Source of the DNA: an uncultured Granulosicoccaceae bacterium
Lineage (GTDB): Bacteria > Pseudomonadota > Gammaproteobacteria > Granulosicoccales > Granulosicoccaceae
Direction: 5' to 3'
DNA: 38,593 nt
Assembly: GCA_937928685.1 (NCBI GenBank)
Contig: CALGJU010000232.1
Coordinates: forward strand, 1 to 38,593
The notes beneath the pieces are model-generated. The model worked only from the letters and a program-made list of their open reading frames with translations, did not search any database and was not told where the DNA came from. This document shows positions 3,366-26,971 of the stretch, piece after piece. Both the position numbers and the translations under genes were made by a program. Position 1 is the stretch's first letter. Every line of letters starts with the position of its first letter.

Positions 3366-3593
3366 TTAGCATGATGATTTTGCAGCGATGTGATTACCTG
3401 TGTCGTTCGCGCTTCCCTTTACATGGGGAACGCAACCAGGTTGGGTGTCGAATGCAATGTAAACCATTTTAATACTGGCATAGGCGAAGATAATCAACGC
3501 TATTGAGGCACCCGAGACTATCCATTTTTTACTGTATAGGCTTTTTGTTAAGGTGCTGTTTGCCGATTGTTTCTCTCCTGATGGGACACTCAT
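3366..3593 (-). CDS. Short FixH/CcoH-like single-pass membrane protein
   Basis: A 75-aa protein with one membrane helix (about residues 24-46), then MVYIAFDTQPGCVPH and a short hydrophilic tail. FixH/CcoH proteins stabilise cbb3 oxidase subunits. They have one N-terminal helix followed by M-x-Y-x-A...PG-L-V and a periplasmic domain of roughly 100 residues. Here the helix and the MVY-x-A / PG-x-V pattern are recognisable but the periplasmic domain is missing. The start overlaps the ccoP stop by 4 nt (ATGA), as is usual for ccoH-type genes after ccoP. I treat the family link as likely on position and weak on sequence; it could be an unrelated small oxidase-associated protein. Confidence 0.5.
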   Translation of the reverse strand: MSVPSGEKQSANSTLTKSLYSKKWIVSGASIALIIFAYASIKMVYIAFDTQPGCVPHVKGSANDTGNHIAAKSSC

Positions 3594-4489
3594 GGGTTAT
3601 CTCCGACTCCATTCAGTGACAGCACATAGAACGTTAATATTTTACGTTCGCTTAGTGACAGCCTGCTTTCCCACGCCGGCATATGTCCACTGCGGCCGTC
3701 TGTCAGTGTGGCTGTTAATGCAACTGAGTCGCCACCGTAAATCCAATAATCATCGGTCAGATTCGGCGCACCTACCTCAATGTTGCCACTACCGTCTTGT
3801 GCATGACAGCCGGCGCAGTACATAGAATAGGCTGCTTGCCCGGCATTGATATTTTCAGCGGTCGTTGTTGTTTCCGTTGTTGAGCTAGTTTCCGTTGTCG
3901 AGATAGACTGAATATACAAGACAAGACTATCTATCGTTTCAGCACTGAGTACCCCGGACGAGCCGAATGCAGGCATCAATGCTATACGTGTATCGGGATG
4001 GGCACTGTTAATGCCGACCGCCAGCGTCTCTAAAATAGCATTCGGATCTGCACCCCATAGCCAGCTTGTGTCGTTGAGTTTAGGAAAGTACTTGCCGCCA
4101 TCGCCGTTGTTGCCATGGCACATAGCGCAGTTGTCTTCAAATAGAGCCGGGCCGCTTTCACGAACTATGGCCATGAGTTGCGGATTGTCGCGAATAGCAT
4201 CAAAGTCAAGTTGTTCGATCGGGTCTGTCCAACGAGTTTGATTATTATCGCTTTCTATCATTTGCTGCGCGAGGTGCTTTCGTTGATCAAAGCCAAGGGT
4301 GCCTTTTGTGAATGTGTCTCCCAAAGGCCAGGCTGGCATCAAAACCCAGTAACCGATAGCAAACAAAAAAGCAGCTGATAAGCAAGCGATCAGTATTTTT
4401 GGTACCGGGGTGTTGAGTTCTTTAATGCCATTCCATTCGTGGCCCGTTGTCATGTGGCCGGAATATTTGTCTCTCTCACTTACTGACAT
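3590..4489 (-). CDS. ccoP: cbb3 cytochrome oxidase subunit III (diheme cytochrome c CcoP)
   Basis: A 299-aa membrane-anchored periplasmic diheme cytochrome that passes electrons to CcoO and CcoN. Near the N-terminus it has the family segment NTPVPK, a membrane helix with GYWVLMPAWPLGD and TKGTLG. Two heme c sites follow: CAMCH and CAGCH. Methionines in MPAF and MPAW are the likely distal ligands. Between the heme domains lies a low-complexity Ser/Thr/Glu linker (TTETSSTTETTTT). The start overlaps the end of ccoQ and the stop overlaps the next gene by ATGA, so the operon is tightly coupled. Confidence 0.95.
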   Translation of the reverse strand: MSVSERDKYSGHMTTGHEWNGIKELNTPVPKILIACLSAAFLFAIGYWVLMPAWPLGDTFTKGTLGFDQRKHLAQQMIESDNNQTRWTDPIEQLDFDAIRDNPQLMAIVRESGPALFEDNCAMCHGNNGDGGKYFPKLNDTSWLWGADPNAILETLAVGINSAHPDTRIALMPAFGSSGVLSAETIDSLVLYIQSISTTETSSTTETTTTAENINAGQAAYSMYCAGCHAQDGSGNIEVGAPNLTDDYWIYGGDSVALTATLTDGRSGHMPAWESRLSLSERKILTFYVLSLNGVGDNP

Positions 4490-4650
4490 GGATGATCCTC
4501 ATCGGTCAGAATACTGGTAGCCGCATCATCAAATTTCTCCTTATTGCCAGGCCAGTAGACGTAGACAATGACAGCGATAGAAAACAATATAAAATAGAAT
4601 AGCCCGCCGGCTTTAGCTATGAGCACCAAGGTGTTATGTAGTGAATCCAT
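4480..4650 (-). CDS. ccoQ: cbb3 oxidase small subunit CcoQ (not in the ORF track)
   Basis: A 56-aa ORF below the track cutoff. Translation begins MDSLHNTLVLIAKAGG, has one membrane helix (GGLFYFILFSIAVIVYVYW), then the typical CcoQ end YWPGNKEKFDDAA. The start is 1 nt after the ccoO stop and the end overlaps the ccoP start by 10 nt. CcoQ stabilises the cbb3 complex and the CcoP association. Confidence 0.9.
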   Translation of the reverse strand: MDSLHNTLVLIAKAGGLFYFILFSIAVIVYVYWPGNKEKFDDAATSILTDEDHPCQ

Positions 4651-4651
4651 G

Positions 4652-5419
4652 CTAGCTACCCTCTGCTTTTATCGTGTTGTCGTTAGTATCTGTTTGCACA
4701 GATTGCTCACTGTGAGCAATTTCTGTTAATCGACCTAGTATTTGCAGGTAGGCTACCACTGCATCCATTTCTGTTACCCGTTGCGAATCACCATCAAACA
4801 CCCGCACCGAAGTTGCCGGGCCGTAGCGTGCGATCAAACCAGCTACATCATCTGAAGAAGGAGTGGCCTGGGCGACGGCATCCCGGTTCGCGAGGTTGAT
4901 CATAGAGTCTTCATAAGGCACTCCAACCCGACTCATGGCCTTCAGGTTGCCTCGTAGGTCTGTGGTGTTGAGTTCATTTTCCAGTAACCAGCTGTAGGCA
5001 GGCATGATTGATTGCGGTACCACATCACGCGGATTGACAAGATGGCGCGTGTGCCACAGATCAGAGTACTTTTCACCGATACGCGCAAGGTCAGGCCCTG
5101 TTCGTTTAGAGCCCCACAACATCGGGTGATCGTATTGTGATTCAACTGCCCGCGAGTAGGGTCCATAACGATCGACCTCATCCTTAAGCGTTCGAATCAT
5201 TTGTGAGTGGCAAGCGTAGCAGCCCTCACGGATGTAAATGTTCCGCCCTGCGAGCTCCAGCGGTGTGTAGACCCGCATGTCAGGAGCGTGCTCCACGGTG
5301 TCATCGATGGTAAAAAGCGGCGCTATTTCAACCAGGCCGCCAATTGCCGAGACGGCGATGATACCCAGTGCCAGTACAATTGAGTTGCGTTCTATCTTAT
5401 TATGTAACGTGAAAATCAT
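4652..5419 (-). CDS. ccoO: cbb3 cytochrome oxidase subunit II (monoheme cytochrome c CcoO)
   Basis: A 255-aa membrane-anchored cytochrome c. An N-terminal helix is followed by IYIREGCYACHSQMIR, which holds the single CxxCH heme site. Further on are RTGPDLARIG and HLVNPRDVVPQSIMPAY; the methionine in SIMPAY is the expected axial ligand. The start overlaps the ccoN stop by ATGA. It is somewhat longer than the usual 200-240 residues, with a polar C-terminal tail. Confidence 0.95.
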   Translation of the reverse strand: MIFTLHNKIERNSIVLALGIIAVSAIGGLVEIAPLFTIDDTVEHAPDMRVYTPLELAGRNIYIREGCYACHSQMIRTLKDEVDRYGPYSRAVESQYDHPMLWGSKRTGPDLARIGEKYSDLWHTRHLVNPRDVVPQSIMPAYSWLLENELNTTDLRGNLKAMSRVGVPYEDSMINLANRDAVAQATPSSDDVAGLIARYGPATSVRVFDGDSQRVTEMDAVVAYLQILGRLTEIAHSEQSVQTDTNDNTIKAEGS

Positions 5420-7062
5420 GCTGTGGCTTCTCCGGTGGGAACAGACAATGGGCCAACAGATGCATCGTTAGTTACATTGCGTGCAAGTGGCACATGCCTG
5501 ACCGTCATAACAATGTTATAAAAAGCCAGCGCCGCCCCGACCAGAAAAAGGAACCCTCCGAATGCCCGTGCAACGTAATACGGGTGCATGGCAACGAACG
5601 ATTCAAGAAACGAATAAGTCAATGTTCCGCTTTCATTATAGGTGCGCCACATAATTCCCTGTGTTATTCCAGCATTCCACATTGCGATCAGATAAATGAT
5701 TGTGCCTGCGATAGCGAGCCAGAAGTGTACTTCTATTAATATCAGTGAATACATACGTTCGCGATGCCAGATCCAGGGTACCAGGCTATAAAACGTCCCA
5801 AACACAATAAACGCCACCCAACCCAATACGCCGGCATGCACATGGCCAATCGTCCAGTCGGTGTAATGAGACAGGGAGTTCACCGGGCGTATCGCCATGA
5901 ACGATCCCTCGAAGGTTGATATGCCATAGAATACCGCCGCGACCATCATGAATCGTAAGGTGGCGTCATCACGTACCCTGTGCCATGCACCGTTGAGGGT
6001 CATAAGCGCATTGCCCGCAGAGCCCCAGCTTGGCACTAACAACATGACTGAAAAGGTAACACCCAGTGTTTGCACCCATTGAGGAAGTGCGGTGTAGTGC
6101 AGGTGGTGTGATCCTGCCCACATATACATGAACGTAATACCCCAAAAACTGATGATAGACATTCGGTAGGAATAAATGGGTCGCTCAGCGCGTTTAGGCA
6201 GGTAGTAGTACAGCATGCCAAGAAACCCTGACGTCAGAAAGAACGCGACTGCATTGTGCCCGTACCACCATTGCGTCATCGCATCCTGTACTCCTGAAAA
6301 GAGGGAATAGCTCTTGGATCCCAGGAAGGATACCGGCACTGCGAGGTTGTTGATTATATGCAGCACGGCCACCACAAGAATGAAGGCCAGGTAGTACCAG
6401 TTGGCCACGTATATATGGGGCTCTTGACGACGCGCGAGCGTACGCAAATACAACACCAGATAAGTAACCCATACAATGACAAGCCAGATGTCTGCGTACC
6501 ATTCAGGTTCAGCGTATTCTTTAGATTGGGTAATGCCCAACAGGTAGCCGGTAGCGGCGACTAAACAAAATAAGTTAAAACCCAGTAGCACAAACCAGGG
6601 GCTAAGCTGATCGGGAAGACGGGTTCGACTGGTACGTTGCACCACGTGAAAGGAAGTTGCTATAAGTGCGTTGCCGCCAAAGCCGAAAATCACCCCCGAG
6701 GTATGGACTGGCCTTAAACGTCCGAGACTGGCCCACGCATAGTCAAAAGTGAGCTCCGGATAGGCAAGTAGCAGCGCCACCCAGACACCAACAAACATAC
6801 CGAGCATGGCCCAAATTAATGACAGATAAATACCCGCCTTAATCGGCGCATCATAATAGTAGGTCAGCTCCTCTGCTGTCGCTTCCGGTTGCGAACGAAT
6901 AGAAAACAGAGCGCCGAGCGTTACCAGAGCGGCCGTGACGATCACGGCGCCCTGAAGTTGAAAACCGATGTCGTGGCCGGCGAGTGCCATAATCAGACCG
7001 ACACCTAAAAGGAGTAAAGTGATGCGTGTAGCGAGTGTTCGCTCTGAAAAAGTCATTTGCAT
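5416..7062 (-). CDS. ccoN: cbb3 cytochrome oxidase catalytic subunit CcoN
   Basis: A 548-aa heme-copper oxidase subunit I of the C type, the proton-pumping O2-reducing core with very high O2 affinity. Heme and copper ligands are visible: RPVHTSGVIFGFGGN and SFHVV (low-spin heme side), WWYGHNAVAF (CuB histidine with the nearby tyrosine region YYYLP), GSHHLHY (two CuB histidines) and GHVHAG (heme ligands). There are about 12-14 helices, including an extra N-terminal hydrophobic pair before the core. The start could be ATG 7062 or the ATG two codons on. The promoter region upstream has an FNR-type site centred 82 bp before the start, with TATGCT 31 bp from the site centre. Confidence 0.97.
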   Translation of the reverse strand: MQMTFSERTLATRITLLLLGVGLIMALAGHDIGFQLQGAVIVTAALVTLGALFSIRSQPEATAEELTYYYDAPIKAGIYLSLIWAMLGMFVGVWVALLLAYPELTFDYAWASLGRLRPVHTSGVIFGFGGNALIATSFHVVQRTSRTRLPDQLSPWFVLLGFNLFCLVAATGYLLGITQSKEYAEPEWYADIWLVIVWVTYLVLYLRTLARRQEPHIYVANWYYLAFILVVAVLHIINNLAVPVSFLGSKSYSLFSGVQDAMTQWWYGHNAVAFFLTSGFLGMLYYYLPKRAERPIYSYRMSIISFWGITFMYMWAGSHHLHYTALPQWVQTLGVTFSVMLLVPSWGSAGNALMTLNGAWHRVRDDATLRFMMVAAVFYGISTFEGSFMAIRPVNSLSHYTDWTIGHVHAGVLGWVAFIVFGTFYSLVPWIWHRERMYSLILIEVHFWLAIAGTIIYLIAMWNAGITQGIMWRTYNESGTLTYSFLESFVAMHPYYVARAFGGFLFLVGAALAFYNIVMTVRHVPLARNVTNDASVGPLSVPTGEATA

Positions 7063-10595: not shown

Positions 10596-10609
10596 TTGAT
10601 ACAGCTCAA
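10596..10609. promoter_or_regulatory. FNR/Anr-type site for the two-domain usp
   Basis: TTGATACAGCTCAA matches 9 of 10 positions. On the minus strand GAGAAT (10569-10574) is centred exactly 31 bp downstream. Confidence 0.65.
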
Positions 10610-10657
10610 TTTCTCCTGAGCCGGCAGCTTAAACATCGATGACTCATTGCATATTTG

Positions 10658-10671
10658 TTGATTTCAGTCAA
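10658..10671. promoter_or_regulatory. FNR/Anr-type site for the multiheme cytochrome
   Basis: TTGATTTCAGTCAA matches 9 of 10 positions. AATACT (10694-10699) lies 32 bp downstream, and the ATG is 67 bp from the site centre. Confidence 0.75.
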
Positions 10672-10731: not shown

Positions 10732-11814
10732 ATGGAAAGTCGGGTGTCACAGATTTCTACCGCATTTTGCATGTTTGTTATTCAGATGGTTATGGCTCCG
10801 CTGGTCATAGCAGATGAAATGAGTATCGATGAGATGTGGGCAGACTCTCCTCATGCAGATGCAAAGTCTGAATCGTTTGTGCACTGGGATAAAGACGGAA
10901 TCATTCCTTCAGACTGTGCAACATGCCATTCAGGTACCGGGTTCAGGGATTTTCTCGGCGATGATGGAAGCAGCGCTGGAGTCACCGACAAAGATCATGC
11001 GCCGGGAAGTCTGGTCGATTGCCAGGCATGTCACAATGATGCGGCTAAAGTGCTGAGTAGCGTTAGATTCCCCTCTGGCGTGGTGGTAGAAAACCTTGAA
11101 TCATCGGTGCAGTGTCTCGTGTGTCATCAGGGAAGATCATCTACCAACAGTGTTAATGCTAAACTGGCAAATCTGGCGGTAGATACCGTCAATGATGAAT
11201 TATCGTTCATAAATATTCACTACCGCGCTGCGGCAGCAACGCTGTACGGGGGGGAAGTTGCAGGTGGCTATCAATACGAAAATCTCACTTATGTGGGACG
11301 TTTCGCTCATGTACCCGGTTTTGACACCTGCACCAGTTGCCACAACGCTCACACCACAGTAGTAGATAGCACACAGTGCAGTACCTGCCATGCAGGCAAT
11401 GATGAGTTAAGTACTATCCGGATAACGGCTATTGATTTTGATGGTGATGGTGATAAAAATGAAGGAATCGCGGCCGAGATAGCCTCTCTTCATGAAAGAC
11501 TTGGCGCCGCCATTCGCGATTACAGTTCTGATGTTGCTAATGCGCCGATCGGATATAAACCCGGGCGATATCCATACTTTTTCCACGATAAAAATGGTGA
11601 CGCTCAGATTGACGACGCTGAAGGAATCTACCCGAACCGTTATCAAAGCTGGACGCCGCGTTTATTGCAAGCGGCCTACAACTACCAGTTTGTATTGGTT
11701 GATCCGGGAGCATATGCCCATAATCCCAAATATGTTATACAGCTTCTGTACGACAGTATCAGTGACCTCAAAACCCGTATTGATGTTGATATTGATGATA
11801 TCTCACGACCGTAA
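10732..11814 (+). CDS. Periplasmic pentaheme c-type cytochrome with EF-hand-like calcium loops
   Basis: A 360-aa protein with an N-terminal signal peptide (hydrophobic to about residue 27, ending near VIADEMS). Five CxxCH heme sites are visible: CATCH, CQACH, CLVCH, CTSCH and CSTCH. After the last heme come two acidic loops: DFDGDGDKNEG and DKNGDAQIDDAE. The second fits the EF-hand D-x-(D/N)-x-D-x-x-I-x-x-x-E pattern. The C-terminal third is heme-free, with aromatic residues (YPNRYQSWTPRLLQAAYNYQ). Family and redox partner are not recognised. It is likely a periplasmic electron carrier or reductase used at low oxygen, given the FNR-type site upstream. No membrane quinol oxidase partner is encoded next to it. 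Confidence 0.85.
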   Translation: MESRVSQISTAFCMFVIQMVMAPLVIADEMSIDEMWADSPHADAKSESFVHWDKDGIIPSDCATCHSGTGFRDFLGDDGSSAGVTDKDHAPGSLVDCQACHNDAAKVLSSVRFPSGVVVENLESSVQCLVCHQGRSSTNSVNAKLANLAVDTVNDELSFINIHYRAAAATLYGGEVAGGYQYENLTYVGRFAHVPGFDTCTSCHNAHTTVVDSTQCSTCHAGNDELSTIRITAIDFDGDGDKNEGIAAEIASLHERLGAAIRDYSSDVANAPIGYKPGRYPYFFHDKNGDAQIDDAEGIYPNRYQSWTPRLLQAAYNYQFVLVDPGAYAHNPKYVIQLLYDSISDLKTRIDVDIDDISRP

Positions 11815-13800: not shown

Positions 13801-16239
13801 ATGTTTCAAAGAATAGAGACAGCCTACAAAAAGGTGCGCAGAATATTTAGTCGCAGTGAATGGCTGGTGAGGCTGCTTGGTCTCGACAGACATAACAATT
13901 CATTATTGAACAACAAGGAATATGCAGCGCACCCGGTTGGATTAATATTGGTTCAGATTGATGGTCTGGGCCACGATCAGCTTAAACAGGCTATTGATAG
14001 TGGTGAGCTGCCGTTTATAAGAAGGCTACTTAATAAAGAACATTATCAATGCCTTCCGCTCTACAGCGGTTTGCCAAGCTCAACACCAGCAGTGCAGGGC
14101 GAACTTTTCTATGGTGTGAAAAACATAGTGCCGTCATTCGCCTTTAGACGCAAAGCAGACGGCAGGCAGACGCGCATGGTTGAACCTGCAGCGGCTCACC
14201 GTATACAGAAAGAACTTGAGGCGCGCGGTACAGCACTTTTAAAAAATGGCAGTGCATACTGTGATATTTATACCGGTGGTGCAAGAGAGTCACACTTTTG
14301 TGCCGCTTCATCCGGATGGAATACCCTGTTTAGCTGGTCGGCGGTACGGCACTGGGGGATAGTTTTATTGTTGAACATTCCCACGTTGGTGAAAGTCGTT
14401 GCTTTGATGGTGATAGAAATATTATTAGCAGTAAAGGATCTGTTCAAGGGCATTATAGACGGAAAATCTGCTATAGCAGAAATGAAGTCCCTTGTAGCAC
14501 GTGTGATGGTTAGTATTCTGCTGCGTGATCTTGTCACTATTGGTGCAACTGTCGATATTGCGCGCGGCCTCCCGGTGATCCACCTAAACTATCTGGGATA
14601 CGATGAGCAAAGTCATCGCAGGGGCCCCGACTCACCCTTTGCTCACTGGACACTCAAGGGCATAGATAAATGCATAGAGAAATTATGGAGAGCCAGCCAT
14701 CACAATATACATCGTCACTACGATCTTTGGGTATATTCAGATCACGGGCAAGAGCGAACCACCCCTTATACAAGGCTTACCGGCAACACTATTAACTCAG
14801 CGGTAGCTTTCGCATATGACGATATTCTGCGGAAACACCAGCCGACTACAACACGTGTTTCAAGGAATTCACTGACAGAAGAACAGTTGAACTCAGGCAA
14901 TGCTTGCTACGAAAAACTCGATGTAAGTGGCACTAATTCATCCCAGCCAGGTAAGACAGCACATTCCCCGGTCACTATCGCTATAGGACCGGTAGGGCAC
15001 GTATACATCGACAATAAGCGTGCGTTATCGTTGCGATCGGATATAGCGTCTCAGTTGGTACTGCATTATAAAGTACCCGCGGCAGTGCTTATGTGTTCCG
15101 ATCGATTGGAAGTGCACATGGCGGCTGGCGTATCGTATCTTCCCGGTGATGGCAACAGGGTCTTTGGTGCTTGCCATCCGTTTCTCAAGGAACTATCAAG
15201 TGATCTGCTCGAGATGTGCCGACACGTGGATGCAGGCGATATTGTATTACTCGGCTGCGTTAACGGCGTGGAGTCGGTGTCGTTTAAGACAGAGAATGGC
15301 GCACATGCCGGAATCGGACCCAATGAAACCAAGGCATTCGCGTTAATTCCCGCGGACACCGACTTGAGTGATGATAAAAAAGATTATATCCGTCCGGCAG
15401 TGTTACACCGCGCCGGGCTTAGAATACTAAGCCCGCAATCGCAAAAAATATCCGTTTCTGCTGGTGCAGACAAAATTCCAAAGGCGGACATTACTCATCA
15501 GAATCACAGCTTAAAGGTAATGACTTATAACGTGCACAGTTGCATTGGCATGGACAATATTGCATCGCCGGAGCGTATTGCTCGTGTTATATCGCGCTAT
15601 AGACCTGACATCATTGCGCTACAGGAGCTTGATGTTAACCGTACAAGAAGCAACAATATTCATCAGGCGAGTTTGATTGCCGAAATGCTGGATATGGATT
15701 TTTATTTTCATCCCTCAATCAGTGAAGCACATGAGGAATACGGTGATGCCATTATCAGTCGCTTTCCTATGCAACTGAGAAAGGCTGCGGCACTTCCCAA
15801 GCCGACGTCTATGATTGATATAGAAACCCGTGGTGCACTTTGGGTTACAGTAGATTATTTTGGTGACAAATTGCAGATCTTTAACACACACTTGGGATTA
15901 CGCAACAAGGAGCGATTACTACAGACAGAAGCACTGCTCGGTGATCAGTGGCTACATCACCCGGATTGCATCGGGCCCTCAATACTGTGTGGTGATCTGA
16001 ATGCGGTAGCAAGCTCTCGGGTAGTGCAACGATTCAGCCCGGAGTTTACAGATGTACAAACACACCTGCCACGCAATATGCGGAAGAAGACATTTAGCTC
16101 AAGAGTTCCGACCGTGCAGATTGACTATATACTGGCAAATGAGAACTTTAAAACTCATTCTGTGGAGGTTCTGGATAGTGAGTTGACCAGAGTGGCAAGT
16201 GATCATTTGCCGATGATGGCGTCACTTACGCTGCAATAA
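13801..16239 (+). CDS. Fusion of a nucleotide-pyrophosphatase/phosphodiesterase-like domain and an endonuclease/exonuclease/phosphatase domain
   Basis: An 812-aa protein with two hydrolase modules. Residues about 40-540 are an alkaline-phosphatase-superfamily domain with a metal Asp in VQIDGLGHD, a likely nucleophile Thr in SSTPAVQGE, YDEQSHRRGPDS, SDHGQE and the late His of NGAHAGIGP, so the two-metal site looks complete. A hydrophobic stretch near 180-215 may associate with the membrane. Residues about 570-812 are an EEP domain with TYNVHS, ALQELD, NTHLG, CGDLNA and SDHLP, all catalytic motifs intact. No signal peptide is evident. The substrate is unknown; EEP relatives of this kind include lipid phosphodiesterases and nucleases. 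The start is 18 nt after the kinase stop, so co-transcription with it is likely. Confidence 0.8.
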   Translation: MFQRIETAYKKVRRIFSRSEWLVRLLGLDRHNNSLLNNKEYAAHPVGLILVQIDGLGHDQLKQAIDSGELPFIRRLLNKEHYQCLPLYSGLPSSTPAVQGELFYGVKNIVPSFAFRRKADGRQTRMVEPAAAHRIQKELEARGTALLKNGSAYCDIYTGGARESHFCAASSGWNTLFSWSAVRHWGIVLLLNIPTLVKVVALMVIEILLAVKDLFKGIIDGKSAIAEMKSLVARVMVSILLRDLVTIGATVDIARGLPVIHLNYLGYDEQSHRRGPDSPFAHWTLKGIDKCIEKLWRASHHNIHRHYDLWVYSDHGQERTTPYTRLTGNTINSAVAFAYDDILRKHQPTTTRVSRNSLTEEQLNSGNACYEKLDVSGTNSSQPGKTAHSPVTIAIGPVGHVYIDNKRALSLRSDIASQLVLHYKVPAAVLMCSDRLEVHMAAGVSYLPGDGNRVFGACHPFLKELSSDLLEMCRHVDAGDIVLLGCVNGVESVSFKTENGAHAGIGPNETKAFALIPADTDLSDDKKDYIRPAVLHRAGLRILSPQSQKISVSAGADKIPKADITHQNHSLKVMTYNVHSCIGMDNIASPERIARVISRYRPDIIALQELDVNRTRSNNIHQASLIAEMLDMDFYFHPSISEAHEEYGDAIISRFPMQLRKAAALPKPTSMIDIETRGALWVTVDYFGDKLQIFNTHLGLRNKERLLQTEALLGDQWLHHPDCIGPSILCGDLNAVASSRVVQRFSPEFTDVQTHLPRNMRKKTFSSRVPTVQIDYILANENFKTHSVEVLDSELTRVASDHLPMMASLTLQ

Positions 16240-21109: not shown

Positions 21110-21511
21110 TTACCCGGCAACAGTATCAAAAAGCGCCCTGAGTACGTCACTTCGGCTTACCTGACCAAGCAGTTTATGGTTTTCAACAACTGGTATACGT
21201 CGAAAGCGACTGTTAATAAAATGTAAAGCGGCATCGGTGAGTTCTGTATCCGGAGCAATTGTTTCTACCGGGGACACCATATAGTCACTGACCAGTCCTC
21301 CCCACACGTGATGATAGTGAGCGTTCAATGCTGCTTTTAAGCAGTCGCGTTTTGATAGAACGGCGAGTAAATTTCCGTCACCATCAAGAACTGGTGCGCC
21401 AGAGATATTTCTTCTTAGCAATTCGGTGGTGGCACTGAGTATCTCGGTATCCGGCGTCACCGTATAGAGGTCAGTGATCATTATTTCTTTGATAAAATGT
21501 GGTTTAATCAT
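21110..21511 (-). CDS. CBS domain pair protein
   Basis: A 133-aa protein made only of two CBS repeats: VTPDTEILSATTELLRR with GAPVLDGDGNLLAVLSKRD, and IAPDTELTDAALHFI with RRIPVVENHKLLGQVSRSD. CBS pairs bind adenine nucleotides and act as energy sensors. The start overlaps the nqrM stop by 8 nt, so it is the last gene of the Nqr-like operon and is probably translated with it. That makes a regulatory link between adenylate state and the redox complex plausible (inference). A stand-alone CBS protein is likewise part of the mycobacterial DosR regulon. Confidence 0.88.
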   Translation of the reverse strand: MIKPHFIKEIMITDLYTVTPDTEILSATTELLRRNISGAPVLDGDGNLLAVLSKRDCLKAALNAHYHHVWGGLVSDYMVSPVETIAPDTELTDAALHFINSRFRRIPVVENHKLLGQVSRSDVLRALFDTVAG

Positions 21512-21680
21512 TGTGGGCTTCCGGGTGCGCTCCGTCGCAACCTGTAAGGCAGCTAGTGTTGGTGAGAAAGTGCACGCTACTGCAAGTCCTGTTTAGTGGC
21601 GTTCGCCTTGTTAGTATACCTATACCCAGTCCGGCTATCAGTACCGTAAACGCAACCAGGCATGCCAATAACTCAATCAT
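21504..21680 (-). CDS. nqrM: NqrM-like small membrane protein (divergent)
   Basis: A 58-aa protein from the ATG at 21680, with GAGGTG at good spacing upstream; the track start at 21752 runs into apbE. It has one N-terminal helix (MIELLACLVAFTVLIAGLGI), then a basic turn and a cysteine cluster (CSSVHFLTNTSCLTGC). NqrM (DUF539) delivers iron for the membrane Fe-S centre of NqrD/NqrE and has four cysteines after its helix; here three follow the helix and one lies inside it. Position after apbE in the Nqr operon supports the call, while the sequence is divergent. Confidence 0.65.
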   Translation of the reverse strand: MIELLACLVAFTVLIAGLGIGILTRRTPLNRTCSSVHFLTNTSCLTGCDGAHPEAHND

Positions 21681-21702
21681 AAATTCACCTCTATAAAGCG
21701 GT

Positions 21703-22674
21703 TCATATAATGTTGCCGATGATAGTAAAAGCGCCTGCATTATTATTGTCATTTTTGTCTATAAGCAGGGCGTCTAGTTTGTTCTGCGTAGCGTATGCAA
21801 TAGATTTGTTTTTTCCCATAGTGAATAACGCCGTTGACCAGGCGTCGGCCAACATCGCACTGGGGTGGAAAACAGACACCGAGAACAGATCTGTATCTAC
21901 GACCGACAGTGTAGATGGGTTGATCAGATGACTATAAGTATTATTGAGGTAGTCAAAACTGTTTTGCTTAACACCAGAGGTGGCAATAGAACGATTATCT
22001 AAGGTTGCCAAAAACGGCACATCGGTGGTGGTTTCAATGGCGATCTTCCAGTATCGCCCGCTGGGGTGGCGTCCCTTTGCTACTAACTCTCCGCCGAGTT
22101 CAAAAAGAAAGTGTTTATAGCCAAGGTCAGTAAGGTGGTGTGCGATTTTATCAAGCGCAAAGCCTTTTGCTATTCCGCACAGATCGACTGTTGCACCTTC
22201 CCGCCGCTTGGTGATTGCGTCATCAGTGAGTGACAGGTCATGGTAGCGGCAGTGCCTGCTTCCGGTGATGGGACCAAAACCGTATTGATTTACATGCGGT
22301 CCAACCGTTGGATCAAACGCGCCGTCTGACTGTATTGCTACATCGAGTGCGGCCTTTGTCACGGTATAACACCAGGGCGACAGTGGCTGACTGTAAGCGC
22401 TGTGGCTATGATGATTGAAGCGGGATACTTCAGAGTCTGGCAAATAGGGAGACATCGACTGGTCTACTTTTTTGAGCGTAGTGTGCACTGCGTTGATTGC
22501 CTTGTGCACTGGATACTCTGGCAAGAGGGTCAACTGCCAGCTGGTGCCCAATGCCGCTCCCTTACAGGTGATAAGGCCGTCTTTATTGTATTCATCTGCA
22601 ATGATTGATGGGCATATCACAGCACCCCCTAATCCAACAGCTGCTGTAACGAAATTGCGTCTGTCTATGTTCAT
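21703..22674 (-). CDS. apbE: ApbE, FAD:protein FMN transferase
   Basis: A 323-aa periplasmic enzyme that attaches FMN to threonine in SGAT-type motifs. The N-terminus has a twin-arginine-like signal (DRRNFVTAAVGLGGA). Motifs include GTSWQLTL, SPYLPDSEVSRFN, GAFDPTVGP, DLCGIAKGFALD, ELGGELVAKG and the late ADAWSTALFTMG. Its expected target in this operon is NqrC, which carries DGISGATRT. NqrB here lacks such a motif. The start is 3 nt after the nqrF stop. Confidence 0.93.
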   Translation of the reverse strand: MNIDRRNFVTAAVGLGGAVICPSIIADEYNKDGLITCKGAALGTSWQLTLLPEYPVHKAINAVHTTLKKVDQSMSPYLPDSEVSRFNHHSHSAYSQPLSPWCYTVTKAALDVAIQSDGAFDPTVGPHVNQYGFGPITGSRHCRYHDLSLTDDAITKRREGATVDLCGIAKGFALDKIAHHLTDLGYKHFLFELGGELVAKGRHPSGRYWKIAIETTTDVPFLATLDNRSIATSGVKQNSFDYLNNTYSHLINPSTLSVVDTDLFSVSVFHPSAMLADAWSTALFTMGKNKSIAYATQNKLDALLIDKNDNNNAGAFTIIGNII

Positions 22675-22677
22675 ACG

Positions 22678-23892
22678 TTAGATCTCGAAGTTGTCAGAGT
22701 AGATGTGGGCTTCATCAATACCTGCCTGCTTCAACATGGTGATGACTGCTTTTAGCATCAATGGGGGCCCACACAAGTAGTAGTCGCACTGGTCTGCTTG
22801 TGGGTTGCCATCAATAAATTGTTGCCGCACTACGTCGTGAATAAATCCTCTCTCTCCCGACCATTGATCGTTCGTTGCTGGCTCTGAAAGCGCTACGGTC
22901 CATGTAAAATGCTTGTTGTTTTGTGCCAACTGATCGAATTCTTTCTGGAAAAAAAGATCTGTCAGACTGCGGGCTCCGTAGAAAAACCGGATGTCCTGAT
23001 TTGTGTTGTCTCTAACCTGCTGATGGATAATAGCCCGTAGCGGCGCCATGCCCACACCACCGCCAATGAGCACCATAGGTCGACGATGGTCGTGCACGGT
23101 AAAATCACCAAACGGTCCACTGATCTCCACTTGATCATTATTCTGCAAGCTGAATAGCCAGCTTGAGACTTTACCTGGTGGCAGGTCAGTAGATTGAGGT
23201 GGCAATGCCAGGCGGATTAACAGCACAATATGCCGTTTATCTTGTGTGTGATTAGCAATTGAGTAGGCGCGAGTTTCGGCAACGTCACTGTGTACAGTCA
23301 ATCTTGAGAGGTTCATCTGCTGCCATTGTTCCCGGTACCGATCATCAACGTGGAAATCGCTGAATTTGCATGCAAATGGCGGGGTAGTTACCTGTACATA
23401 TGCACCTGCGTCAAAGTAAAACTCTGCATCTGCTGGAAGCTCGAGAGTGATCTCTTTTATTAGTGGTGATAGATATTTTGAGGATGTGACGGTGCAATTC
23501 CAGTGTTGCGCTGTGAAGACTTCTTCGGCAACGGTAATTTCCAGGTCATCGCGTACTGTTAGCTGACAGGCAAGCCGTACACCGCGTTCGCATTCTGTGT
23601 CGCTGAGCCTGCCACGTTCAGTGGGCAATACTGAACCACCTCCTGCGGTGACAGTGACTTTGCATAAGCCGCAAGTACCGGCTCCGGCACAGCCAGAGGG
23701 CAATAGAATATTTTCAGATGCCAGTGCGTCAAGAAGTTTGCTACCAGCGTGCGCTGGTAGTTTACGTGAATGGTTCACCATTACGCTCACTAACCGATCA
23801 GGCAATAATGCACGTCGAATCTGCTGCACCAGTAGCGACAGAAAAACCACAAGCGTTGTGATTATGATTGTGGCTAGAATAATAGTATTCAT
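22678..23892 (-). CDS. nqrF: NqrF-like NADH dehydrogenase subunit (2Fe-2S, FAD)
   Basis: A 404-aa subunit that oxidises NADH and starts the electron path. Order: N-terminal membrane helix (about 4-24); 2Fe-2S ferredoxin domain with [10 protein letters not shown] and a later C in RLACQ; FAD domain with RAYSIAN; NAD domain with [25 protein letters not shown] and [10 protein letters not shown]. All cofactor motifs of Na+-NQR subunit F are present. Length is close to normal. The ATG overlaps the nqrE stop by 4 nt. Confidence 0.93.
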
Positions 23893-24482
23893 GAAAGAGT
23901 AAACGCTGAAAAGCCCATCGATATCAGGCCGGTGATGATAAACGCCAGCCCAAGACCACGTAGTCCGTCAGGTATGCGCTGTTGGTTCAGGCGTTCCCGG
24001 ATGGCGGCGAATAGTACTACGGCCAGCGCCCATCCAACCCCACTGCCAAAGCCGTAGGCAATACTTTCGGTAAAATTGTAGTGCCGCTCTACCATGAAAA
24101 GACTGGCACCGAGGATTGCACAGTTAACGGTAATTAGTGGCAGAAAAACACCCAGTGCACTATATAGAGCGGGCGAAAACCGGTCGAGTACTACCTCAAG
24201 TATTTGCACCATCGCCGCGATAATCCCAATAAACGCAATGAGCTTGAGGAACGATAAATCCTGATTCGCTATGCCTGCCCATTGCAATGCGTTTTCTGAC
24301 AGCAGGGTGTGAAATACCAGATTGTTCAGCGGTACGGTGATGGTCTGAACCACAATAATAGCAACGCCAAGTCCGGCTGCTGTTTCAACGCGGCTGGAAA
24401 CAGCCATGAAGGTGCACATGCCAAGGAAGAAAGACAGCGCTAGATTGTCTGAAAATATAGCGCTGATGATGATATCGATCAT
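23889..24482 (-). CDS. nqrE: NqrE-like membrane subunit
   Basis: A 197-aa membrane protein of about six helices. The two cysteines expected to hold half of the membrane 2Fe-2S centre are present: [14 protein letters not shown] in the first half and [13 protein letters not shown] in the second. The length equals NqrE/RnfA. It pairs with NqrD. The start overlaps the nqrD stop by ATGA. Confidence 0.93.
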
Positions 24483-25156
24483 GATCCACCCTCGCGACTT
24501 GTAGCGCTTACTGGCGGCGTGTTGTGCAATGTGATTTTTGCCGGTTCCACCTGTTCGGTTTTAATGCTCCGGATGCCCCATATCAGTAGACCGATAATAA
24601 AGAAAGCACTAGGTGCTTTTTGCATGAAAGCCATCGGCTCAAACCAACCCCCATGTTCAGCCAGTGGCAGCAGAGGAATACCCAGCAGAGTCCCCATACC
24701 CAGTATTTCTCGTATGCTTGCGACAAAAATCAGTATTAGGCTATAGCCCGCGGCGTTACCCAGTGCATCTAATATGCTTGGCACAACGTCATTGTGCATA
24801 GCAAACCCTTCGGTACGTCCCATCACCAGACAGTTAGTGACTATCAGACTGACAAATATTGATAACACCTGGCTGATCTCGAAAAACCACGCTTGTAGTA
24901 TTTGATCAATTACGATCACCATCGAGGCGATAATGGTGATCTGAATAATCAATCGGATAGACGACGGAATATGATGACGTATAGCACTGATAATCCCACT
25001 GCTGACAGTCAACACCACAATCACGGCGATACACATCGTTAACGCAGTTTTTAAGTTCGTGGTAACGGCCAGTGCCGAACAGATGCCAAGCATTTGTATC
25101 GTGATTGGATTATTGTTGAGCAATGGCTCAAACAGATAACGCCGCCAATAGGTCAT
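24479..25156 (-). CDS. nqrD: NqrD-like membrane subunit
   Basis: A 225-aa membrane protein of about six helices, paralogous to NqrE. The conserved cysteines are kept: [13 protein letters not shown] and [31 protein letters not shown] is characteristic of NqrD/RnfE. Its start overlaps the nqrC stop in a TAATG arrangement. The intact cysteines mean the inward-to-outward electron step through the membrane should still work. Confidence 0.93.
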
Positions 25157-25977
25157 TAGCTCGCCCTCATAGGAATTTCACCTGTACGGAGCTTGTCTAA
25201 AAACGGTGCAAAACCATAGTCACCCAGCCAGAACTGAATCATTGAATTTATCCCGAGCCCGGTGCGGGTGGCGCCGCTGATACCGTCAACTTCATTCGCA
25301 TTGGTGGCTTTCCCGGTGACCACACTCAGTGCGACATCACCGTTCTCGTTGTGAAGTTGTTTTTGTGCCCATAATTGCTGCCACGCAGTTTCTGTGATTC
25401 GTGCACCTATACCCGGGGTTTCAGCTTGTTCAAACACAGACAGCGCGACGACGGTATTGAGATCACCCGAAAGGGTTAGCCAGGCTCGAATGGTTGACTG
25501 ATACCCTCGGCCGTAAATCGGTAACACCAATAGATCTAACACGCCCTTCTTTTGTAGTAGGTGAACTTCTATCAGATTCGGCCGTTGCTCGATGCCTGCA
25601 ATATCTATGGAGTCATCAAGCGCTAACGTATATATCTCAGCGTTACTATTGTCCGAGACCGTCAGCGCCTGCGCCTTGAAGTTTTCTATTTGTGCCGGCT
25701 CAGCGGCCGTCCCGGTATTAAGATCAATGAAGAGTGATTGCAGCGTGTCTGCATCACTGTTCTGCAACACATCTTTTAAGCCTGGAAGTGACGACAACAT
25801 CGTATCCATACGTTGTTGCCGAAAAGCTTCTTGGTTCGCCTGTCGTTGAGGTTTTAAAAGTACAGCGGTTGCAGACACTGTTAACGCGCAGGTCACGCCG
25901 ACAAGTGTTGCCATGCAAAACGCCTTTGCCGTGCTGTCGTTAGGCATGTTGTGAAACTTTCGACTAATCCACGACAT
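25156..25977 (-). CDS. nqrC: NqrC-like subunit with covalent FMN site
   Basis: A 273-aa subunit with one N-terminal membrane helix (about 17-42) and a periplasmic FMN-binding domain. The flavinylation motif is DGISGATRTG, in which the second threonine (S-G-A-T-x-T) is the expected FMN attachment site. ETPGIGARITE, upstream of it, is also typical of the family. The start overlaps the nqrB end by 14 nt. FMN would be attached by the ApbE encoded downstream in the same operon. Confidence 0.93.
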   Translation of the reverse strand: MSWISRKFHNMPNDSTAKAFCMATLVGVTCALTVSATAVLLKPQRQANQEAFRQQRMDTMLSSLPGLKDVLQNSDADTLQSLFIDLNTGTAAEPAQIENFKAQALTVSDNSNAEIYTLALDDSIDIAGIEQRPNLIEVHLLQKKGVLDLLVLPIYGRGYQSTIRAWLTLSGDLNTVVALSVFEQAETPGIGARITETAWQQLWAQKQLHNENGDVALSVVTGKATNANEVDGISGATRTGLGINSMIQFWLGDYGFAPFLDKLRTGEIPMRAS

Positions 25978-26782
25978 TTTGAGAACCTCCCTTAAGTTTG
26001 ACGTTGGTCGCGCTGACCATATAATCGATCAAAGGGGTTGCAACACTGGCAAGTAGAATAATAAACACTGTTTTCTCGAGTGACAGCCAGTGGCTTTGCA
26101 GCACTTGCATTGCAATGCCGATTAGCGCACCGATAATTATTCGCCCAGGCAAAGTACGTGGCATAACCGCTGAATCACTGGCCACAAACAACAGGCACAT
26201 AACCACCGCGGTGGACGGGGAATAGGAAACCGGCGAACCTCCGGTCATAGCGACCGTAAGTAAGTAGCCGATGGGCACTGCCAGTAAATACGGTATATCA
26301 ATGAATCGATACCATAGAAACAGTGCTGCCGGTAGTGTGAGAACTACCACGGGATAGGTATTTAGCGGGGACATCGCGTCTGTTTTAAATGCGTAAAACA
26401 GGAAGGCGAGCCCGGTGATCACGGGATTTACAAAGCTGTCGCCACGTCCGCCGAATATCTGTTCACCAATCACAGTGCCGAAGCTCACAATCAACACCAG
26501 TTGCCATGAACTCAGGTCAATTGGTAGCAAAAGAGTAAAAAACAACGCTGATACCAGCAAATCAACACCTGGTGTTTCAGACCGACCCCTTGCAAATAAC
26601 CAACCCCAGAAAAAAACGGTTAGCGAAATCACTGCAAGCTTTACAAGCAAGGCAGGCTGAATTGCAAACAGTGGTAGTGTCAGTATCGTGAGAACAACAC
26701 TCTTTACGATATCCTCTGAAAAAACCCGACCATAAATAGTGACGCTACCCGCAGAGTAGGGTGTGTGGAGATTTGTCTGCAT
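25964..26782 (-). CDS. Short NqrB/RnfD-like membrane subunit lacking the FMN motif
   Basis: A 272-aa membrane protein of roughly 8-10 helices; NqrB is normally about 410 and RnfD about 350. Recognisable anchors: SFGTVIGEQIFGG, FVNPVITGLAFLFYAF (compare LNPALAGRAFLFFAYP in Vibrio NqrB), CLLFVASDSAVMP (compare FFMATDPVSA) and ATPLIDYMV (compare FAPLFDHVV). The segment between the second and third anchors, which in NqrB and RnfD carries the SGAT flavinylation threonine and the following GSIGE region, is absent, and the N-terminal extension is shortened. It is the first gene of the operon; nothing like nqrA precedes it. The electron acceptor of this variant is unknown. Confidence 0.85.
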   Translation of the reverse strand: MQTNLHTPYSAGSVTIYGRVFSEDIVKSVVLTILTLPLFAIQPALLVKLAVISLTVFFWGWLFARGRSETPGVDLLVSALFFTLLLPIDLSSWQLVLIVSFGTVIGEQIFGGRGDSFVNPVITGLAFLFYAFKTDAMSPLNTYPVVVLTLPAALFLWYRFIDIPYLLAVPIGYLLTVAMTGGSPVSYSPSTAVVMCLLFVASDSAVMPRTLPGRIIIGALIGIAMQVLQSHWLSLEKTVFIILLASVATPLIDYMVSATNVKLKGGSQNVVD

Positions 26783-26872: not shown

Positions 26873-26886
26873 TTGATCCATATCAG
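26873..26886. promoter_or_regulatory. FNR/Anr-type site for the Nqr-like operon
   Basis: TTGATCCATATCAG matches 9 of 10 positions. On the minus strand TCTAAT (26846-26851), five of six matches to TATAAT, is centred exactly 31 bp downstream. This is one of the best promoter reconstructions in the window. Confidence 0.8.
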
Positions 26887-26957: not shown

Positions 26958-26971
26958 TTGATGTCAATCAA
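26958..26971. promoter_or_regulatory. FNR/Anr-type site for the ABC exporter operon
   Basis: TTGATGTCAATCAA matches all 10 positions. CACAAT (26993-26998) is centred exactly 31 bp downstream, which predicts a transcript start near 27006. Confidence 0.78.

Follow-up and report, generated by a model that had tools for sequence, protein, structure and literature searches.

The 38,593-nucleotide contig CALGJU010000232.1 of an uncultured Granulosicoccaceae bacterium (assembly GCA_937928685.1), referred to here as the window, carries an operon for a variant of NQR, the NADH:quinone oxidoreductase, in which the membrane subunit NqrB is short. With moderate confidence, we read this variant as an NADH-driven transmembrane exporter that would deliver electrons to a periplasmic pentaheme cytochrome c, and not as a quinone reductase. 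A wider reading, which we also favor but with slightly more reserve, is that an undescribed NQR clade acts as an NADH:cytochrome c oxidoreductase that works through NqrC on a dedicated pentaheme cytochrome, bypasses quinone, and can be exchanged for exporters of the ferric-reductase type, the window holding a minimal, NqrA-less version. The system looks like an undescribed route by which NADH electrons leave the cell interior at low oxygen.

The operon and the electron path to NqrC

The operon (nqrB-nqrC-nqrD-nqrE-nqrF-apbE-nqrM-like-CBS, minus strand, 21110-26782) is made up of mostly overlapping genes and has no nqrA; the gene order, coordinates and motifs proposed in the initial annotation were all confirmed (Table 1). 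NqrF scored 413.9 bits against a TIGR01941 cut-off of 295 and has its 2Fe-2S, flavin adenine dinucleotide (FAD) and NADH sites. NqrD and NqrE lie above their NCBIfam equivalog cut-offs, with all four [2Fe-2S] cysteines present, and NqrC is at its own cut-off (144.1 versus 144 bits), with the motif for covalent flavin mononucleotide (FMN), SGATRT. The electron path is thus intact as far as the FMN of NqrC, as the annotation had it. The operon contains neither rnfB nor rnfC and does contain nqrF, which agrees with its earlier separation from Rnf. An RnfD-like frame is found elsewhere in the same genome (G000:C115:6693-6893), which may also encode an Rnf complex. The small nqrM-like open reading frame aligns with a homologue annotated as nqrM; two relatives of its product match PF04400, one above the cut-off (23.7 bits) and one below, and the window protein itself has no Pfam match.

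The loss of nqrA and the shortening of nqrB could be taken as signs of a nonfunctional, decaying operon. This is scarcely credible, given that the operon genes tested have ratios of nonsynonymous to synonymous substitution rates (dN/dS) of 0.05-0.18 against a sister species (G007, an uncultured Granulosicoccaceae bacterium, 93% complete), that the operon has an identical layout there, and that the short form is conserved across two classes as one clade. For the clade, decay was rejected on these grounds of purifying selection and conservation. The sites leading from NADH to the FMN of NqrC are retained across the short-NqrB clade, with the SGATRT-type motif in 36 of 38 NqrC sequences and TGASRT and AGATRS in the other two. 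Complex I was found in all seven genomes checked, so the NQR variant is not their sole NADH dehydrogenase; cytochrome c1 was found in six of the seven and was not found in the incomplete window genome.

Loss of the quinone branch in the short NqrB

The NqrB of the window matches PF03116 and TIGR01937 in two pieces only (72 bits versus a cut-off of 349.9). For comparison, 12 short NqrB sequences were aligned with NqrB of Vibrio cholerae and ten canonical NqrB. The roles of the FMN threonine, the quinone-site helices and E157 were taken from a published study, according to which the quinone pocket is formed in part by the N-terminal amphipathic helices (AH-I/II) and by G141, and a residue other than glycine at position 141 is expected to block quinone sterically (PMC10643135). 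The segment that carries the SGAT motif and the periplasmic FMN threonine (T236) falls in a gap in 12/12 short sequences, which also lack about 45 N-terminal residues and the loop between transmembrane helices 1 and 2. N156 and E157 (the latter in the Na+ path) and F159 are lost in all 12; the SIGE segment (E273/E274, Na+ path) is absent, and D52 aligned loosely only. In the window protein, the amphipathic helices are absent and G141 is replaced by phenylalanine (F57). These gaps bear out the description of a 272-residue NqrB without the SGAT and GSIGE regions. With the FMN threonine and the quinone helices missing from all 12, the standard exit to quinone through NqrB is gone, as proposed.

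A displaced flavinylation site, which would have offered an alternative, was not found on a motif scan of 39 short NqrB: [ST]GA[ST] is absent from 37 of them. The two apparent matches were discarded, one being a nonhomologous C-terminal site (L128) and the other the NqrC motif within a frameshifted NqrBC frame (L067). An AlphaFold model of NqrB, built on a two-sequence alignment, had a mean predicted local distance difference test (pLDDT) value of 43.7 and was too poor for a fold search. On four named plasmids, the short NqrB is labelled by NCBI as an RnfABCDGE type subunit D.

The earlier statement that this NqrB lacks its flavin site holds for the covalent FMN. The riboflavin pocket is lost in part: D346 and G198 are retained in 12/12 sequences and N203 in 8/12, with N200 and T162 variable. 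It could therefore be argued that the complex is still an NADH:quinone oxidoreductase, in which NqrC-FMN would reduce a noncovalent flavin in the NqrB pocket and, through it, quinone, the cytochrome being an accessory or a side branch. Besides the pocket residues, this view can draw on the nqrA kept by most relatives and on the two-subunit Nqr/Rnf-like complexes, which have no conserved flavinylation site and for which direct contact between NqrC and a noncovalent flavin has been modelled (PMC10979944). We regard it as unlikely, in view of the missing AH-I/II helices, the phenylalanine at position 141 in the window and the loss of N156, E157 and F159 throughout; it also leaves unexplained the near-universal pairing with the cytochrome and the replacement of the NQR operon by ferric-reductase-type proteins, both described below.

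A pentaheme cytochrome as the probable partner

A multiheme c-type cytochrome gene was first seen divergent from nqrA in three genomes (G020, G051 and G062). A search with its product recovered the cytochrome in 5/5 Granulosicoccaceae genomes with a short NqrB and in 0/8 other Granulosicoccaceae tested. In a sample of 399 genomes from the phylum, the cytochrome occurs in seven, comprising 5/5 short-NqrB genomes and 2/394 others (Fisher p 2.6e-10), and in an alphaproteobacterial family of 220 genomes, of which 35 have the cytochrome, 29 the short NqrB and 25 both, it is present in 25/29 short-NqrB genomes and 10/191 others (Fisher p 6e-21); both tests ignore shared ancestry. In all 25 family genomes with both, the cytochrome and nqrB share a contig and are no more than about 3 kb apart, usually with the cytochrome diverging from nqrA-B-C-D-E-F-apbE-nqrM-CBS. 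The same layout is found on four named plasmids, of Paracoccus seriniphilus, Shinella sp. HZN7, Nitratireductor sp. OM-1 and Pseudooceanicola algae. Of the four family genomes with a short NqrB and no pentaheme cytochrome, one (G886) has a c cytochrome of another kind, the EB_dh type, at the divergent position beside its short-NQR operon (L131:1367-2752, minus strand), which also favors a cytochrome partner, and in another (G994) the locus is cut by the contig end. The periplasmic partner suggested in the initial annotation is likely, and co-occurrence and layout identify it, by association, as the pentaheme cytochrome.

All 46 cytochromes have five CxxCH motifs and five further invariant histidines (H41, H163, H193, H207 and H330), a pattern that fits five hemes of the bis-histidine, electron transfer type. 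The N terminus resembles a signal peptide as judged by eye, and dN/dS against the sister species is 0.08. A PDB sequence search with the cytochrome returned nothing significant, Pfam gave generic cytochrome matches only, and an AlphaFold model from the single sequence (pLDDT 33.1) was too poor for a fold search. In two genomes (G760, locus L067; G803, locus L145), the cytochrome and several nqr frames are broken, through either decay or assembly errors.

The cytochrome might itself be a terminal reductase (of nitrogen oxides, sulfur compounds or metals) with the operon as its dedicated donor, a proposal that differs from the export reading in the final step only. Multiheme cytochromes do include such enzymes, and FNR boxes lie near the genes. 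We nevertheless give this proposal very little weight, since the histidine pattern suggests that all hemes are six-coordinate and the searches revealed no enzyme homologue in the PDB.

Partners of the cytochrome outside the NQR loci

At loci with the cytochrome but no NQR operon, the divergent gene usually encodes a membrane protein of the NAD(P)H ferric-reductase type, some 490 aa long, in which Ferric_reduct, FAD and NAD domains are present. Nine loci have this arrangement (L089, L090, L149-L153, L156 and L157), and one genome (G831) has both pairs, cytochrome/ferric reductase and cytochrome/NQR. On a Defluviimonas plasmid (L070, NZ_CP156080.1), the cytochrome lies near PepSY, cytochrome b561, DUF2271 and ApbE genes, and no NQR genes were found in the stretch read. 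Ferric-reductase-type NAD(P)H oxidase-like proteins are an electron-exporting class. Most of the replacement partners are of kinds thought to carry electrons from inside to outside, which places the NQR operon in the slot of an electron exporter.

These replacements also bear on the direction of flow, which nothing in the sequence fixes. Electrons could run in reverse, from a periplasmic donor through the pentaheme cytochrome, NqrC, NqrD/E and NqrF to reduce NAD+, and an earlier proposal for Desulfovibrio had Rnf fed by a decaheme cytochrome whose gene precedes the rnf operon (PMC4841214). Reverse flow is distinctly improbable here: the interchangeable partner belongs to an exporting class, inward electrons would go against the membrane potential, and no donor gene was found nearby.

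Distribution of nqrA and history of the clade

The short NqrB turned up in Alphaproteobacteria and in Gammaproteobacteria, the latter represented by five Granulosicoccaceae genomes, the members of the short-NQR clade coming from Rhodobacterales, Hyphomicrobiales and Granulosicoccaceae. In a tree of NqrC, a branch supported at 100/100 separates the 38 short-NqrB loci from 32 canonical NqrC. The NqrC of the window falls inside the short-NqrB group, among loci that retain nqrA; the gene is kept by almost all relatives that share the short NqrB. From this nested position it follows that NqrB was shortened first and that nqrA was lost later. Profile searches, on which the absences in the window genome rest, recovered no nqrA or canonical nqrB elsewhere in that genome (77% complete) or in the sister species.

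The initial annotation had placed the missing nqrA at the core of the finding, an emphasis that the relatives do not support. Judged from this tree, the absence of nqrA is a late, secondary loss confined to the window lineage, and the mark of the short-NQR clade is its putative pentaheme cytochrome partner, which the annotation had not linked to the operon, rather than the loss of nqrA.

FNR boxes and genomic setting

Where 2.2 FNR-type boxes with no more than one mismatch would be expected, the window contains 17, at positions that include the regions upstream of nqrB and of the cytochrome and the interval between ccoN and a universal stress gene. The two boxes near nqrB, one of them perfect, substantiate the annotated FNR association of the operon (Table 1). 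The divergent cytochrome/nqrA regions contain an FNR box at 16 of 32 loci, with 0.84 expected.

Positions 7137-33476 would make up an FNR-box-rich, low-oxygen/stress region, with boxes beside genes for the cbb3 oxidase, three universal stress proteins (Usp), an MBL-fold protein, dnaK, baeRF/host attachment, VIT1 and HSP20. A general link between the operon and cbb3 was discarded, as the window was the one locus, of those read, with cbb3 genes nearby. An alphaproteobacterial locus (L065, genome G497) shares with the window the cytochrome-NQR genes, VIT1, a response regulator, a PAS histidine kinase, HSP20, DnaJ and Usp, a likeness that suggests a shared or transferred island. An 812-aa protein encoded at 13801-16239, the C terminus of which resembles an endonuclease/exonuclease/phosphatase domain by eye, is kept in the sister species (L069).

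Table 1. Features of the window relevant to the variant NQR operon
Feature	Position	Strand	Evidence
Short nqrB, 272 aa, without FMN-threonine segment and N-terminal quinone-site helices	25964..26782	-	reading frame, profile search, alignment
nqrC, periplasmic FMN subunit, SGATRT	25156..25977	-	profile search, motif
nqrD, two of four membrane [2Fe-2S] cysteines	24479..25156	-	profile search, motif
nqrE, remaining two of four membrane [2Fe-2S] cysteines	23889..24482	-	profile search, motif
nqrF, 2Fe-2S/FAD/NADH subunit	22678..23892	-	TIGR01941 413.9 bits, motifs
apbE, flavin transferase	21703..22674	-	
nqrM-like small gene, 58 aa from conserved start (82 aa from upstream ATG at 21752)	21504..21680	-	
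CBS-domain gene, kept as last operon gene in most relatives	21110..21511	-	
Perfect FNR-type box TTGAT-N4-ATCAA, upstream of nqrB	26958..26971	.	
Second FNR-type box, 1 mismatch	26873..26886	.	
Pentaheme c-type cytochrome, putative periplasmic electron acceptor	10732..11814	+	homology search, CxxCH count, co-occurrence
Two FNR-type boxes, 1 mismatch each, upstream of the pentaheme cytochrome	10596..10671	.	
ccoN-ccoO-ccoP, cbb3 oxidase in FNR-box-rich region; possible final acceptor	3590..7062	-	

Proposed electron path

In the export reading, NADH would reduce the FAD and [2Fe-2S] cluster of NqrF, from which electrons would pass to the intramembrane [2Fe-2S] cluster of NqrD/E and on to the FMN bound covalently to NqrC on the periplasmic side. 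These steps follow from the conserved sites and from known NQR biochemistry. NqrC-FMN would then reduce the pentaheme cytochrome, docked where NqrC would otherwise feed the FMN of NqrB; this last step is suggested by the association of the genes, the replacement partners and the lost NqrB branch. NqrB would stay as a scaffold, ApbE would flavinylate NqrC only, and NqrM would mature the NqrD/E cluster. NqrA, its anchor on the NqrB N terminus being gone, would have been lost in the window lineage. Outward movement of electrons uses the membrane potential, and the complex is therefore likely to serve, when oxygen is low, to dispose of NADH electrons or to supply a periplasmic acceptor with reducing power. 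In the window, NADH electrons would probably be disposed of to such an acceptor, possibly the cbb3 oxidase. The sequences themselves give the gene content, the residues lost and kept, the single clade, the co-occurrence, the layout and the FNR boxes; electron transfer to the cytochrome, the direction of flow, the final acceptor and the absence of both quinone reduction and ion pumping are inferred.

Several observations weigh against this reading. The partnership of NQR and cytochrome is proposed by association, and in the window the cytochrome gene is about 9 kb from the operon and not adjacent to it. The four exceptions in the alphaproteobacterial family include a short-NQR locus with a selO gene in place of the cytochrome (G821, L140) and another with no cytochrome within the 1.6 kb available (G802, L122). 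Conversely, one cytochrome has a nonaheme cytochrome and a cytochrome b561 as neighbours (L148:6863-10549), and two cytochrome loci (L154 and L155) have no evident partner. The quinone-site glycine G141 is retained in 5/12 short NqrB, and the invariant D346 and G198 mean that the short NqrB may still bind flavin. Finally, the export reading does not explain what use most relatives make of the NqrA that they keep.

Comparison with known systems

Like the Na+-NQR (NqrABCDEF) of V. cholerae, the variant has NqrC-D-E-F with FMN, membrane [2Fe-2S] and NADH/FAD/2Fe-2S sites, and apbE and nqrM in the operon. It differs in the short NqrB without the covalent FMN site, the quinone-site helices and an acidic residue of the Na+ path, in the absence of nqrA from the window, and in the link of the clade to a pentaheme cytochrome. 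With Rnf it shares a membrane subunit of the NqrB/RnfD family, whereas its operon has NqrF in place among the subunits and no rnfB or rnfC.

The closest working analogue is the Rnf of Methanosarcina acetivorans, the outlet of which is the heptaheme cytochrome MmcA (PMC11024163). In both cases, an Rnf/Nqr complex is accompanied by the gene of a multiheme c-type cytochrome, and MmcA takes electrons outside the membrane. That system is, however, archaeal, an Rnf and supplied by ferredoxin, and MmcA is related to octaheme tetrathionate reductases. The Desulfovibrio rnf operon likewise has an apbE-like gene and an adjoining multiheme cytochrome gene, for the decaheme DhcA, but it encodes Rnf and not NQR, and DhcA-cytochrome mutants had no fitness effect in the cited data (PMC4841214). 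One-way transfer from NAD(P)H to an extracytosolic FMN-binding protein has been proposed for two-subunit Nqr/Rnf-like complexes, which also have an NqrB-like subunit without the FMN threonine (Meheust 2021, PMC8238504; PMC10979944). There, NqrB is fused to an NAD-binding domain, whereas here it is separate and accompanied by a full NqrC-D-E-F.

In the literature searched (open-licence papers only), we found no description of the pairing of short NqrB with a pentaheme cytochrome, nor of a truncated or nqrA-less NQR, NQR with a multiheme cytochrome, an NQR of Granulosicoccus or an FnrL/NQR connection; an earlier account of the nqrA-less operon type was thus not found there.

Implications

The role usually assigned to NQR is that of a quinone reductase and sodium pump. 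If the export reading is right, current annotation, which takes NqrF as the marker and labels the short NqrB as RnfD, mislabels such operons as sodium pumps. In one survey, NqrF was the sole criterion for an NQR cluster (PMC8238504), and short-NQR operons would have counted there as ordinary NQR. The half of the complex from NADH to NqrC would also prove able to export electrons unaided, which has been proposed for Rnf with MmcA. In genetic terms, NQR would then fall into two separate half-paths, which bears on the purpose of NqrA and NqrB.

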